Source: an uncultured Bacteroidota bacterium
GTDB taxonomy: Bacteria > Bacteroidota > Bacteroidia > Chitinophagales > Chitinophagaceae
Direction of reading: 5' to 3'
Assembly (NCBI GenBank): GCA_903926605.1
Contig: CAIYJV010000163.1
Location: 1 to 41,330, forward strand
Length of the DNA stretch: 41,330 nucleotides
Under the pieces are notes generated by a model, which saw only the letters and a list, made by a program, of their open reading frames with translations, was not told the DNA's origin and ran no database searches. The translations under genes were made by a program, and so were the position numbers. This document shows positions 19,358-23,437 of this stretch, piece after piece; the stretch's first letter is position 1; the number at the start of each line of letters is the position of its first letter.

Positions 19358-19635
19358 GTTTGTCTTTATTTTCAAAATTGCATCCAAAATACATAAAAAT
19401 TTCTTTGCCTTGCAAATTATTACTTCAGATTTTTTTTTTTGCGCTACAAAGATGTTTACAGAATTGCAAATGTAAATAAGAATACCACAACTTTTACAAT
19501 AACGCACTTTAAAATTTCAGGTTTCTTTCAACGGCACTTTTAGTCAGCGTTTTCAGTTCGGCCAAAAGGCACCAACTACAACTGCAAACAACATCCTGCA
19601 TGCGGTTTTTCGCGTAATTACTACTTTGTTTCTTG

Positions 19636-20574
19636 CTACATTGCTATAGCCTTGGGGAACAGGATATTGTTTTCGAGGTGGATGTGCAGCACCAGATCTG
19701 CATAAAAGGCTTTCAGTTTTTTGAAAAACAATGCATAGCTATTACAGGAATCGGCTGGCAATGAGTAGTTTCCGGTTAGAGACTCGATGTCGCGAAACAA
19801 GGTGGCTACCACCTCGTGATCCTGCTCCATAACGGATATAGGACTTTTTACTGACGGGAAACAGGCCCCGGTGTCGCCACCCTGACCCTTGGCTGCTTCT
19901 ATCTGCCGGATATAGGGAAACAGAACCTGTTCTTCCTTTTTCATGTGTATCACCAGTTCGTTTATTATTTCCTGCACTTTTTCATAGATCATGTTCAACT
20001 CAGGATGTGCCGCACCGTGATGAGTCGTCACACTTTTGGCCAATTCCCGCAAACCGGAAACATTATTACGCACATACACATGGTGGACATTTTCAATATA
20101 GTCGGCCAAAAAGGTGCTTGACCAGTTGTTGTAATCCAGTACAGCCACGTAGTCGTCATGCTGAATTTGCGGCTTGCTGAGTTCTTCCCGTATCCGGACA
20201 ACGTCCAGGCCCTTTTCCCGGCATGCATCCTCCAGCGTTTTTTTACCACCACAGCAAAAATCGAGACCGTACTTTTTAAAGATTTCCGCTTTTGCAAGAT
20301 CCTTTGCAGCGATCTCTCCCAGTGTCTCCGGTACTTTACCGGCTTCGTGTTTGCGAATCTCTACCTCCCATATCTGCGGCCCCGATTGCAGGTAACTCCA
20401 GGAAAAAATATTGCCTCTTTCGCCCAGAAGCTGGTAGTATAGCGGCTTTGGATCGTGGTCATTGTGCAGCACAAACGCCTGTCCACCTTCCAGACCATCG
20501 AATGCCTGAAACACGGTTGGGTGCTTTAACCTTGGTTCTAATACCGTAACATCAATCTTTTCTAACTGTTGCAT
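19636..20574 (-). CDS. ric: RIC/ScdA/YtfE-type di-iron protein for repair of iron-sulfur clusters, with DUF2249 domain
   Basis: The 312-residue protein has three parts: a DUF2249 domain (about 1-75, with HNDHDPKPLYYQL), an ScdA_N domain (about 80-135, with the FCCGG motif at 106-110), and a hemerythrin-like four-helix domain (about 150-310). The latter carries di-iron ligands in VHHVYV (164-165), THHG (185-186), HMKKEEQ (210-214), QDHE (253) and HIHLENN (297-301). RIC proteins supply iron to, or repair, clusters damaged by NO. Its place next to norBC and an Rrf2 regulator supports a nitrosative-stress role. A motif shared with the rrf2 operator lies 36-58 nt upstream. The DUF2249 fusion is longer than plain YtfE (about 220). 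Confidence 0.93.
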   Translation of the reverse strand: MQQLEKIDVTVLEPRLKHPTVFQAFDGLEGGQAFVLHNDHDPKPLYYQLLGERGNIFSWSYLQSGPQIWEVEIRKHEAGKVPETLGEIAAKDLAKAEIFKKYGLDFCCGGKKTLEDACREKGLDVVRIREELSKPQIQHDDYVAVLDYNNWSSTFLADYIENVHHVYVRNNVSGLRELAKSVTTHHGAAHPELNMIYEKVQEIINELVIHMKKEEQVLFPYIRQIEAAKGQGGDTGACFPSVKSPISVMEQDHEVVATLFRDIESLTGNYSLPADSCNSYALFFKKLKAFYADLVLHIHLENNILFPKAIAM

Positions 20575-20609
20575 AACTATTTGTTTTTATGGTGCGAAAT
20601 ATTAAATAC

Positions 20610-20632
20610 TTAAAGACCTTTTTATCCTTTAA
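20610..20632. promoter_or_regulatory. Candidate Rrf2-type operator before ric
   Basis: TTAAAGAC (20610-20617) and TCCTTTAA (20625-20632) form an imperfect inverted repeat with a 7-nt spacer. The plus-strand core (TAAAG-AC, then TTTATCCTTTA) closely matches the core of the perfect repeat before rrf2 (TAAAGGAC, then TTTATCTTTTA), with one base missing. I see no clean TAnnTTTG for ric. Confidence 0.5.
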
Positions 20633-20645
20633 CGATACAAAAAAA

Positions 20646-21083
20646 TCAGGATTTTTTCAGAAAGCTGCTTCCGGATTCCAGCGAATGTGCAAGGGAACCA
20701 ATTGTTGATTCGGTAAGCAACTGCGTAAGACCGCTGCGCACAGCCAGAAATTTGTGATGCAACGGGCACGGCTCTTTTTCCGAACACTCCCGCAAGCCAA
20801 GTCCGCACCCTTTAAAAATATTGTCACCGTCTATAGCGATCACAATATCAATTACCGGTCTGCCTTTTTGTACCGCGTCCAGATAAAATCCGCCGTTCAC
20901 GCCCTTTTGAGAACTCACCAATCGCTTACGTGTAAGGACCTGGAGAATCTTGGCTGTAAAATGTTTGGGTGCACCTATTTCCGAGCTGATATCACTTATG
21001 CCTACCAGCACCCCATCACCACTGTTTGCCGACAAGAAAATTGCCGCCCTTATTGCATATTCACAAGCCTTGGAAAACATCAT
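20646..21083 (-). CDS. Rrf2 family regulator, probably NO-sensing (NsrR-like)
   Basis: The 145-residue protein has the Rrf2 winged-helix domain (FSKACEYAIRAAIFLS; then KHFTAKILQVLTRKRLVSSQKGVNGGF, where the recognition helix and wing sit). Three cysteines, Cys93, Cys100 and Cys106 (CX6CX5C), match the [Fe-S] ligands of NsrR/IscR-type proteins. It lies between norCB and ric on the same strand, so NO sensing is the likely role rather than IscR-like housekeeping. Either of two adjacent ATGs (21083 or 21080) can start it. It has its own promoter, overlapped by a long inverted repeat, which indicates autoregulation. It is not proven to bind NO. Confidence 0.88.
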   Translation of the reverse strand: MMFSKACEYAIRAAIFLSANSGDGVLVGISDISSEIGAPKHFTAKILQVLTRKRLVSSQKGVNGGFYLDAVQKGRPVIDIVIAIDGDNIFKGCGLGLRECSEKEPCPLHHKFLAVRSGLTQLLTESTIGSLAHSLESGSSFLKKS

Positions 21084-21123
21084 CCGTATGTTTAGGAATA
21101 AAAATCAATGCCGTATAACGACG

Positions 21124-21155
21124 CAAAGATAAGCAGCTTTTCAATAAAGGACAAA
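21124..21155 (-). promoter_or_regulatory. Promoter of the Rrf2 regulator gene
   Basis: On the minus strand TTTG (21155-21152), a 20-nt spacer and TATCTTTG (21131-21124) match the Bacteroidota -33/-7 promoter exactly. Initiation near 21116 gives a leader of about 33 nt to the ATG at 21083. Confidence 0.7.
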
Positions 21156-21173
21156 TTTATCTTTTATTGAAAA
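21138..21173. promoter_or_regulatory. 36-bp inverted repeat, candidate Rrf2 operator
   Basis: TTTTCAATAAAGGA (21138-21151) and TCTTTTATTGAAAA (21160-21173) are inverted copies matching at 13 of 14 positions, with an 8-nt spacer. The repeat covers the -33 element and spacer of the rrf2 promoter. It is not followed by a T-run in the norB direction, so an operator is more likely than a norB terminator. Confidence 0.65.
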
Positions 21174-21195
21174 AATCGCCTTTTTGAAATACGGC

Positions 21196-22506
21196 TTATC
21201 TGTCGTTCAGTACTTTGAAATAGGAAAATACGATGAGCCCAAAACCGATCGCCACTCCAATACCCGCGACAGCCGCAACCGTCAGTATAGAATTTACAGG
21301 CTGCATTATGGTCTGAAAATCGGGTATGTCCAGTACAGCGGTACGATAGCCCTTAAGCAAACCCGCAACAATGAGCGCCACCCAGAACACAACAAGGCTA
21401 TACTGGCCGATGTTATAACCTTTGTTGATCAGGTTACGGACACCGCCTGTATACTTGTCTACATTCAGTATATAGCCCAAGCTACCCAGAAGAATCATGG
21501 TATTGATGCCGATGGTGGTTCCCATGGCATGGGCAACCGTTATATGGGTACCATGTGTATATCTGTTCACTGCAGGAATAGACATAAGTAGCGCGAGCAG
21601 CAAATTTGCCATGACCCAGAACTCGGATGCAACAACAAACCTGTAGGACACAAAATTGAGCGCCTTCTTGTATTCATCAACCCGTTTCCTAAAATCGCGC
21701 ATGATGCTGATAAACACCACCCATTCCGTCATACTTACTATATAAGACACGTTTCTTACCCATCCTGCCGAGGGTACATTGTATATATGGTGCCCCCAAT
21801 TGAGCATCAGGTTCGCAAAGCCGATAAAATAAAACATATAGGATTTCCGGCTGTGGGCCATTGACTCATCACCACTTATTTTCACCATAATATACAGCGA
21901 GGTGCCATAGATCATCTGGTTCCAGGCACCTACCATAGCCCCGTTCGCCTTCCATTGAATTGTGAGCTCCCTCACGTAAGACTCTCTGAACCAGGGAATA
22001 TTCCATAAGTTCTGCTCGATAAAAGTGAGCAGGAAAAAGAAAATTCCTGTAGACCACATCCACACATACTGTGGAATGGGATGAATGGGACTGCGCACAG
22101 GCAAAAAATAGGATGCCATAAATGCCAGCCAGCAAATGAGCAGCGGTATACTGAGCACCGAAGGAAACTCCCAATATTCCCGCCCGCCAAAAATGCGGAA
22201 ACTATAGCAAAAGAAAATGGCGAGAATAGAAAGTATCCATAATATTATAAAAACCTGCTTGTATTTTGTTTTCAGCGGATGATGCGAAAGCACTTCACGC
22301 TTATAATACAGTATCCCTGCCGACGCACCTGTAATAATCCAGAATATAGCAGCCGAAACATGAAAAGGGCGCAACTGATAAAAAGGGAAATATCTGGAAA
22401 ATAACTCAGGCATCACAAAAGCCCAGGCTGCCAACACACCGAATACCAAAGTGACCAGCAGGAGCAAAAGCGCAAATCGAAAATATAATTTCAGGAATGG
22501 AGACAT
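21196..22506 (-). CDS. norB: NorB-like haem-copper nitric oxide reductase subunit with altered active site
   Basis: The 436-residue protein has about twelve membrane spans and is paired with a NorC cytochrome. Conserved residues are His49 (RPFHVSA, low-spin haem), His239-His240 (NWGHH, FeB) and His326 (VAHAMG, high-spin haem proximal ligand). By hand alignment to Pseudomonas NorB, anchored on the G-x-W and VKI(T/S)G motifs, the FeB ligand His207 is Asn188, Glu211 is Val192 and Glu215 is Asn196. The second His of the helix-X HxH motif is Met328. The substitutions resemble those reported for divergent NOR families and NO dismutase rather than canonical cNOR. It starts 3 nt after norC and precedes rrf2 and ric, supporting NO turnover. 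The exact reaction is not certain. Confidence 0.82.
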   Translation of the reverse strand: MSPFLKLYFRFALLLLLVTLVFGVLAAWAFVMPELFSRYFPFYQLRPFHVSAAIFWIITGASAGILYYKREVLSHHPLKTKYKQVFIILWILSILAIFFCYSFRIFGGREYWEFPSVLSIPLLICWLAFMASYFLPVRSPIHPIPQYVWMWSTGIFFFLLTFIEQNLWNIPWFRESYVRELTIQWKANGAMVGAWNQMIYGTSLYIMVKISGDESMAHSRKSYMFYFIGFANLMLNWGHHIYNVPSAGWVRNVSYIVSMTEWVVFISIMRDFRKRVDEYKKALNFVSYRFVVASEFWVMANLLLALLMSIPAVNRYTHGTHITVAHAMGTTIGINTMILLGSLGYILNVDKYTGGVRNLINKGYNIGQYSLVVFWVALIVAGLLKGYRTAVLDIPDFQTIMQPVNSILTVAAVAGIGVAIGFGLIVFSYFKVLNDR

Positions 22507-22509
22507 GAA

Positions 22510-22914
22510 CTAATGATCTAATGAATAAGAACCCGACCAATTAACGGCACCGCCGGGAACACGGCTTTTCCCGCTCTTGTCTACCCAGACCAGAAACCGG
22601 ACAAGGTGACTGATTTCTGAGTCATTCAAATGAAAGTCAGGCATCTTGGCGGTGCCTTTTCTGATAAAAACGTCCATATATACCTGCCCTTTGCCGGGTG
22701 CAGATGCAATGTTGGTAAGGTCGGGGCCCATATATCCTCCCAAACCATATAATTGATGACACGCCTGGCAGTTTTTGCTCTGCCAGGTATGCCACCCGTC
22801 CAGTACGACAGCATCTGGTTTTCCTTCCAGATTCCCGTCATCTGCTTGAAAGTAAATTAGTAACGAGTATGCAAAAAAAACAATAACAAATCCTATCCAG
22901 ATTCTTACAATCAT
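22510..22914 (-). CDS. norC: NorC-like membrane-anchored cytochrome c subunit
   Basis: The product has 134 residues from the ATG at 22914 (MIVRIWIGFVIVFF). The open frame reaches a TTG at 22956, but its extra residues (LKRTNYAPLFW) are less convincing. One N-terminal anchor (3-22) is followed by a periplasmic cytochrome c domain with CQACH (Cys49, Cys52, His53), GGYMGPDLTNI, and a likely distal Met91 in KMPDF. The layout is that of NorC, which passes electrons to NorB. It is 3 nt upstream of norB. A Dnr/FNR-like box lies 74-85 nt upstream of the ATG. Confidence 0.88.
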   Translation of the reverse strand: MIVRIWIGFVIVFFAYSLLIYFQADDGNLEGKPDAVVLDGWHTWQSKNCQACHQLYGLGGYMGPDLTNIASAPGKGQVYMDVFIRKGTAKMPDFHLNDSEISHLVRFLVWVDKSGKSRVPGGAVNWSGSYSLDH

Positions 22915-22987
22915 CACACACCAAAATAATGGTGCATAATTAGTGCGTTTTAGCAAAAACAGTTGTGAGTACAGTCATGTCAAAAAA

Positions 22988-22999
22988 TGACCTATATCA
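22988..22999. promoter_or_regulatory. Dnr/FNR-like box upstream of norC
   Basis: TGACCTATATCA (22988-22999) matches the FNR/Dnr half-sites TGAT-N4-ATCA with one mismatch. It is centred about 80 nt upstream of the norC ATG. A weak -7-like TTATTTTG lies downstream of it on the minus strand, placing the box roughly where class I activators bind. Confidence 0.4.
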
Positions 23000-23243
23000 C
23001 CGACACTGCCAGATTGAAAATCCACCAACAAACAAGCCGAAACAGGCCATAAAAACAACAAATTAAAAACAAATCTGCGTACGAACGCAAACAGCGTCAG
23101 CAAACCCTTTTTAGGCAAAACATAGAAGAGTTTTTTAGCAAAAAAAATTACAATATAAACATATTAATACAGCCTCTATATCAACGGTATCACATGGAAT
23201 AAAATTGCTTAAAAATGCTGCCAGCCAATACAATTATTAGCTG

Positions 23244-23274
23244 TTGCAGGAATACGATTTTATTTGTAGTTTTG
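23244..23274 (+). promoter_or_regulatory. Promoter of the exopolysaccharide operon
   Basis: TTG (23244-23246), a 20-nt spacer and TAGTTTTG (23267-23274) fit the Bacteroidota -33/-7 consensus. Initiation near 23281 would give a leader of about 170 nt before the UpxY-like gene at 23454, long enough for regulation by attenuation. Confidence 0.65.
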
Positions 23275-23284
23275 TCCAATACCG

Positions 23285-23437
23285 GTCAAGTTTTTAGCAA
23301 ACGATTTTTTAAACCTTGACACGGATTTTATTTTTTTTAGAATTATATTTTGTTGATCCTGGGTTCGTTTTCACACCCGCATTGGGACTGACAGCGGCGA
23401 AGCTATATTATACAGATTCATTTGCCGCCTGCGGCAA
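23285..23437 (+). promoter_or_regulatory. Structured operon leader with terminator-like element and start-proximal hairpin
   Basis: GTCAAG (23285-23290) can pair with CTTGAC (23315-23320) and is followed by a T-rich run (23326-23338), so it looks like a weak intrinsic terminator. A compact 6-bp hairpin, TTGCCG-CCTG-CGGCAA (23422-23437), sits 16 nt before the GTG start of the UpxY-like gene. Leaders of UpxY-controlled capsule operons are where the antiterminator acts. Confidence 0.45.

Follow-up and report, generated by a model that had tools for sequence, protein, structure and literature searches.

The active sites of eNOR, sNOR, gNOR and nNOR are unusual, and these enzymes have been proposed, or in some cases shown, to reduce NO; in cNOR (NorCB; 3o0r, 4xyd) two glutamates are reportedly essential for activity (Butland 2001). 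A sextet of histidines is a signature of the haem–copper oxidoreductase superfamily; qNOR has an extra N-terminal helix and a long periplasmic stretch, and in the putative NO dismutase (NOD) an Asn stands for one FeB histidine and a Gln for the Glu near the site (excerpt of PMC3413370). In cNOR, insertion of FeB requires NorQ and NorD (excerpt of PMC9976466).

Here we describe a norB-like gene of an uncultured Bacteroidota bacterium (Chitinophagaceae; contig CAIYJV010000163.1), the product of which matches the superfamily in profile and fold and departs from the histidine sextet. The titles and abstract openings of the open-licence literature covered describe neither a haem–copper protein with HxM nor this family, and as far as checked the protein belongs to a new family-level variant of a known superfamily.

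The norCB-like locus and its distribution

The window, the whole stretch of 41,330 nucleotides, carries on its minus strand a compact run of norC-like, norB-like, Rrf2 and RIC/ScdA genes. The variant NorB-like catalytic subunit (positions 21196–22506) comprises 436 residues from an ATG start and scores 89.6 bits against PF00115 (cut-off 34.8) in a profile search. Upstream of it, across a gap of three bases, lies the gene for a NorC-like membrane-anchored cytochrome c (22510–22914; 134 residues, with CxxCH and Met91), for which an inner ATG was picked as the start because relatives begin at the same place; its product matches canonical NorC by blastp with E values of 1e-13 to 1e-7. On the same strand follow genes for an Rrf2-family regulator (20646–21083) and a RIC/ScdA-type di-iron iron–sulfur repair protein with DUF2249 (19636–20574; TIGR03652, 210.9 bits, cut-off 204.7). 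The norC partner and the RIC and Rrf2 neighbours from which the earlier note had drawn a link to NO are thus all found at the locus. A promoter and terminator scan of 19400–23400 gave nine promoter-like sites versus 8.2 in shuffled sequence, i.e. the shuffled level. The genome of the window contains NosZ, and its only other PF00115 proteins are one A-type and one CcoN; searches of this genome for NirK, and for qNOR at E 1e-10, gave no match.

A search with short peptide patterns, a method that may miss other phyla, covered 84,980 species with a single genome per species and returned 45 loci, 44 of which have Bacteroidota titles. The remaining one, titled Azovibrio (L054), is probably a binning error because its protein shares 98.4% identity with its counterpart in a Bacteroidota MAG (L029). 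In a sample of 396 genomes of the order, 35 carry the variant (each above 460 bits, save one split gene) and at least 24 a cNOR-like frame (at 50–64 bits; the six that were read are all canonical), with the two together in none among the matches listed. The same cNOR query that matched in 24/24 cNOR genomes had no match in 37 variant genomes (0/37), an absence that is not significant alone (p = 0.15). The class sample shows the variant in 77 of 395 genomes and 49 of 197 genera.

Of 83 variant genes examined, some of them from overlapping loci, 80 have a co-directional NorC-like gene immediately upstream; at 20 further class-level loci such a partner is adjacent in 18, two genes away in one and absent from one. 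Among 67 distinct partner rows, CxxCH is present in all 66 that are readable and Met91 in all 67. Matches to norQ were found at 8/12 canonical loci and beside none of the variant genes, in a search in which many flanks were short and the annotated NorQ of one locus (L065) was missed. Since a canonical cNOR stretch from Thermus (L067) likewise has no annotated NorQ, these points weaken the absence of NorQ/NorD as a difference from cNOR.

Residues at the haem and metal sites

The variant protein was aligned with NorB of 3o0r and 4xyd (partial) and with the cNOR sequences from four further genomes in the order; for Pseudomonas NorB we take the relevant positions to be His207, Glu211 and Glu215. 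In the cNOR register, Asn188 (codon 21943–21945; this and all codons below are on the minus strand) aligns with the FeB ligand His207, Val192 (21931–21933) with Glu211 and Asn196 (21919–21921) with Glu215, all three as the earlier note had read them. The CcoN alignment has its helix VI register off by one, placing the lost histidine at the invariant Gly189 instead of position 188; in neither register is there a histidine at this site. On helix X, Met328 (21523–21525) aligns with the second histidine of HxH, the position that the second ligand of the low-spin haem normally occupies, and the cNOR and CcoN profile alignments concur.

In a family alignment of 98 rows, or 95 after removal of near-copies, with identities of 34–100%, four of the six histidines are kept. 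These are His49 (22360–22362), the first ligand of the low-spin haem b, in 94/94 readable rows with one gap; His239 and His240 (21787–21792), the two remaining FeB-site histidines, in 95/95 each; and His326 (21529–21531), the proximal ligand of the high-spin haem, in 95/95. The third metal histidine and the second low-spin histidine are lost in all 95 sequences, none of which retains His207, Glu211, Glu215 or the second histidine of HxH. Position 188 is Asn in 52, Tyr in 30, Leu in nine, Met in two, and Ser and Gly in one each, and is His in 0/95; position 192 is Val in 94 and Ile in one. Asn196 and Met328 are invariant (95/95), as are Gly189, Gly193, Glu261 and the family-specific Lys186 (21949–21951), while His321 (21544–21546), another family-specific residue within the THGTH of helix X, is kept in 91/95 (Tyr in two, Arg in one, one masked).

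The HxM reading of the earlier note therefore extends to the whole alignment and, with Met in 95/95 sequences down to 34% identity, the Met328 pattern lies far beyond chance. Its claim that Asn replaces the FeB histidine stands for the window protein in these alignments and fails family-wide: because position 188 varies, with Asn in only 52/95, the fixed family traits on this alignment are the lost histidine and the Met, Asn188 is incidental, and the idea of Asn as a replacing ligand was set aside. A conserved histidine was also looked for between residues 176 and 215 in the 95 rows and none was found (stray histidines occur in 9/95), such that, judged by sequence, helix VI offers no conserved histidine elsewhere as a third FeB ligand, the outcome that the earlier note had named as one refuting its reading. 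His321 was considered as a replacement metal ligand. It precedes Met328 by seven residues, or about two helical turns, on the same face of helix X; by the geometry that we assume, this position would favour the propionate side over the second metal. Lys186 and Asn196 are possible metal ligands, and the two of them, together with the nearly invariant His321, are candidates for new roles.

The place and invariance of Met328, along with the retention of His49, make a low-spin haem b with His/Met ligation probable, as the earlier note had supposed. Among terminal respiratory enzymes, cytochrome bd offers a counterpart of unrelated fold: its haem b558 is a low-spin haem b with His/Met ligands.

An AlphaFold2 model of the NorB-like protein (mean pLDDT 85.6, pTM 0.89) has its first helix starting at residue 3; the HH segment 239–243 is the sole segment with a pLDDT below 50. 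Comparison with VIA-align gave a Z score of 41.0 to 4xyd (417 residues), 8smr (427 residues) and 3mk7, and with Z about 41 for both types the fold comparison cannot separate cNOR from cbb3. By sequence, the only solved relatives up to E 1 are the cNOR NorB chains of 4xyd (E 1e-8) and 3o0r (E 0.0018).

Relationship to known haem–copper families

A tree of 59 rows, 21 of them from the variant family, was computed with cNOR, qNOR, NOD, CcoN and A-type sequences and without B-family rows. The variant forms one clade (support 100/99), cNOR forms another that excludes it (95/94), CcoN is recovered at 100/100, and cNOR, qNOR and NOD group together at 100/100, with NOD as its own clade (100/100) on the qNOR side. 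In this tree without B-family rows the variant groups with CcoN and the NORs against the A-type. A tree forced to unite the variant with cNOR is worse by 40.8 log units and is rejected (p-AU 0.013); the nesting within canonical cNOR against which the earlier note had asked for a test is thus not seen, and its description of the protein as NorB-like and non-canonical agrees with the PF00115 match, the residues and the separate clade. Because joining the variant to all NORs is not rejected (p = 0.47) and the best tree, in which it sits beside CcoN, gives this position no support (64/81), the family is best described, on its sequences, as a separate deep branch outside the cNOR, qNOR, NOD and cbb3 clades with no definite sister.

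With cNOR the variant shares the fold, His49, His326, the HH pair, Glu261, a GRExxE-like motif and a NorC partner with CxxCH and Met; it differs in the missing third FeB histidine, the missing Glu211 and Glu215, HxM in place of HxH and the separate clade. From cbb3 CcoN (C family), with which it has in common the fold, QW on helix VI, H318 and a weakly nearest branch, it is set apart by the three CuB histidines and HxH that CcoN retains. The qNOR frames run to 737–802 residues, whereas the variant has 436 and begins its first helix at residue 3. Two further proteins, L126:418-2685 and L127:469-2703, are qNOR-like (about 32% identity to qNOR), stand apart from qNOR and NOD at 100/100 and are possibly another NOR type, going by their place in the tree.

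The likeness to eNOR and nNOR drawn in the earlier note was dropped because an excerpt of PMC11388526 relates eNOR, sNOR, gNOR and nNOR to B-family oxidases, whereas in the tree, which covered A-type, CcoN and NOR rows, the variant sides with CcoN and the NORs. Its likeness to NOD fares no better. One FeB-site histidine is lost in both and some Bacteroidota NOD-type genes adjoin variant genes, but the NOD-type proteins have HN and retain the histidine of helix VI, the Glu and HxH, whereas the variant has HH; Glu261, kept in the variant in 95/95, is Gln in NOD; and the variant lies outside the NOD clade. The NOD-type frames are also long and qNOR-like (750–958 residues from stop to stop), in contrast to the 436 residues of the variant. 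Of the NOD-type proteins fetched, 12/12 have HN in place of HH, and in 11/12 the first match to FSxx[EQ] ends in Gln, the twelfth being a case of the pattern matching elsewhere.

In NCBIfam the variant protein obtains a sub-threshold ccoN match and no other. This result does not decide whether annotation overlooks the family, and was dropped as evidence to that effect, because three canonical cNORs are likewise below threshold or without a match.

Gene neighbourhoods and proposed function

The 45 variant loci include norC in 40, Rrf2 in 23, a conserved membrane protein (c4) in 22, RIC in 21, hemerythrin in 18, nosF-like ABC genes in 15 (a generic label), nosY-like genes in 15 and nosD in 11; the labelling caught 43/45 of the variant genes themselves, and one NosD was checked at 331 bits. 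Co-directional nosZ–nosD–nosF–nosY–norC–norB runs occur in four genomes (L137, L139, L140 and L141). NosZ exceeds its cut-off in 29/35 variant genomes and lies within 12 kb of the variant on one contig in 9/29, for which the chance is about 3e-13 in a 3.5 Mb genome with a 12 kb limit that was chosen after seeing the data. NirK is above cut-off in 10/35 and within 10 kb in 3/10, in one case as norC–norB–X–nirK on a single strand. Against 21 comparison genomes having neither variant nor cNOR (qNOR was not sought in all 21), enrichment in the variant genomes is not significant for NosZ (29/35 versus 13/21, p = 0.11) or for NirK (10/35 versus 3/21, p = 0.33); the cNOR genomes have NosZ in 18/24 and NirK in 14/24, the latter with p = 0.005. 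Physical closeness is significant, and genome-level co-occurrence of the variant with NosZ and NirK is not. For part of the family the link to NO is strong; in its distant members such neighbours are rare, 20 more distant class-level loci showing NosZ in view once and RIC and Rrf2 five times each.

NOD-type genes, defined by at least 54% identity to the L122 protein, occur in 10/37 variant genomes, 3/24 cNOR genomes and 0/19 others, one of these 19 having a 36% match. Two of the 37 variant genomes, one of them with NOD, had been added by hand; without them the count is 9/35 versus 0/19 (p = 0.019). A divergent NOD-type gene lies 0.5 kb from the variant in three genomes (G153, G216 and G021) and another 1.7 kb away in a fourth (G393). 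NOD-type genes that adjoin the variant gene or lie within about 3 kb of it are seen in several Bacteroidota, at L122:6375-8678, L158, L159, L161, L043:9811-12465 and L044:9810-12683.

Several other proteins recur in these clusters. The c4 protein, with a LHAHSHFAFGGW motif, is encoded near nosZ in variant-gene clusters (L042:8320-9582 on the plus strand and 38 more ORFs, the copy of the window's own genome being L146:10024-11238, plus strand) and also beside 8/20 fetched qNOR genes (L106, L109–L113, L115 and L121). The single copy scanned has no Pfam match; its AlphaFold2 model has a haem–copper fold (8smr_E, E 6.7e-8; 3o0r_B, E 1e-6), and on this model c4 looks like a reduced protein of that fold belonging to NO-related loci. 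Another protein, c13 (L042:11371-12624, plus strand), matches PF00115 weakly (17.9 bits, cut-off 34.8) and is found at 8/45 variant loci. A fasciclin-domain protein recurs in nos/nor clusters (13/45 loci; for example, L038:2119-2676 and L146:1795-2349, both on the plus strand), and an alginate-export-like porin is encoded beside NirK in L134 and L135.

We favour the view that the variant supplies the catalytic subunit of a cytochrome c-fed NO reductase with two subunits, which would belong to a separate haem–copper family, a reading that we hold with some, though far from full, confidence. Electrons from the periplasmic cytochrome c pool would enter at haem c of the NorC-like subunit, pass to a low-spin haem b with His49 and Met328 as its ligands, and reach haem b3 (on His326) and a second metal bound through His239 and His240, at a site that would have neither a third histidine nor the glutamates of cNOR. 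There, two molecules of NO would be joined to N2O, which NosZ can then take on. The full chemical picture, in which a separate Bacteroidota family outside cNOR/qNOR and the B family, fed through a His/Met haem, converts NO to N2O at haem b3 and a two-histidine metal (or another metal, or none) with no Glu ligand, is put forward more tentatively. In favour of an NO reductase stand the fold, the upstream NorC-like gene, the nos runs, the nearness of NosZ and NirK in some genomes, the lack of a cNOR match in 37 variant genomes, the NosZ and the absence of a qNOR match in the window's own genome with its two other PF00115 proteins, and the position of c4 beside qNOR genes as well. The absence from the variant of residues that are important in cNOR counts against it, as do the non-significant genome-level enrichment of NosZ and NirK, the want of a NirK match in the window's own genome, the few NO-related neighbours at distant loci and the low pLDDT of the HH segment.

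That the protein is instead non-catalytic or auxiliary, serving to sense or buffer NO or to carry electrons to NosZ, is unlikely. Such a role would suit the loss of metal-site ligands and the freedom of position 188 to vary, and c4, apparently a second and more reduced protein of the same fold in the same clusters, indicates that such proteins exist there; however, HH, His326, Glu261, Lys186 and Asn196 are fixed over 95 sequences as in a working active site, and the haem c donor is nearly always paired with the protein.

A heavy-metal P-type ATPase, which we take to be CcoI-like, is encoded directly after the variant gene in two genomes (L137:11496-13889, plus strand; L140:1467-3869, minus strand), in the second of which a CcoN frame comes after it. 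This arrangement counts against an NO reductase, as it would also suit a cytochrome c oxidase reducing O2, perhaps at low O2 or with O2 made by NOD. The C-branch fold, the weak placement next to CcoN, the QW and H318 held in common with CcoN and the NOD-type genes of 10/37 variant genomes speak for the same idea. We nevertheless consider an oxidase quite improbable, given that only two of the three CuB-type histidines are present, that the fixed partner is NorC-like, that genes for RIC, Rrf2 and hemerythrin and the nos genes are often found nearby, and that an A-type and a cbb3 oxidase are already encoded in the genome of the window.

An NO dismutase-like enzyme, which would turn NO into N2 and O2 with no outside electrons, could be suspected from the loss of an FeB-site histidine, as in the putative NOD (excerpt of PMC3413370), and from the variant genes that stand beside NOD-type genes. 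It is, however, a different histidine that is lost, with HN in the NOD-type proteins and HH plus Glu261 in the variant; the tree sets NOD apart as a clade on the side of qNOR, a conserved NorC-like partner and a place in nosZ runs would not be needed, and genomes with a NOD-type gene retain the variant too (10/37). We regard dismutation as highly unlikely. The view of the earlier note that reduction and dismutation could not be told apart from sequence seems too cautious, because the nosZ/nirK runs and the side-by-side NOD-type genes favour reduction. An ordinary cNOR with tolerated substitutions, to which the nearest solved sequences and the NorC-like partner might point, is hardly credible and is refuted on the features tested, since the AU test rejects a shared clade and none of the four cNOR residues is kept in any of the 95 sequences.

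The six-histidine signature is a main rule for recognising haem–copper enzymes, and this large natural family departs from it consistently at two positions. The set of variants allows questions to be asked about the roles of the third metal histidine, the glutamates of cNOR and the His/His low-spin haem. If the family reduces NO, some of the organisms that host it would make N2O besides using it.
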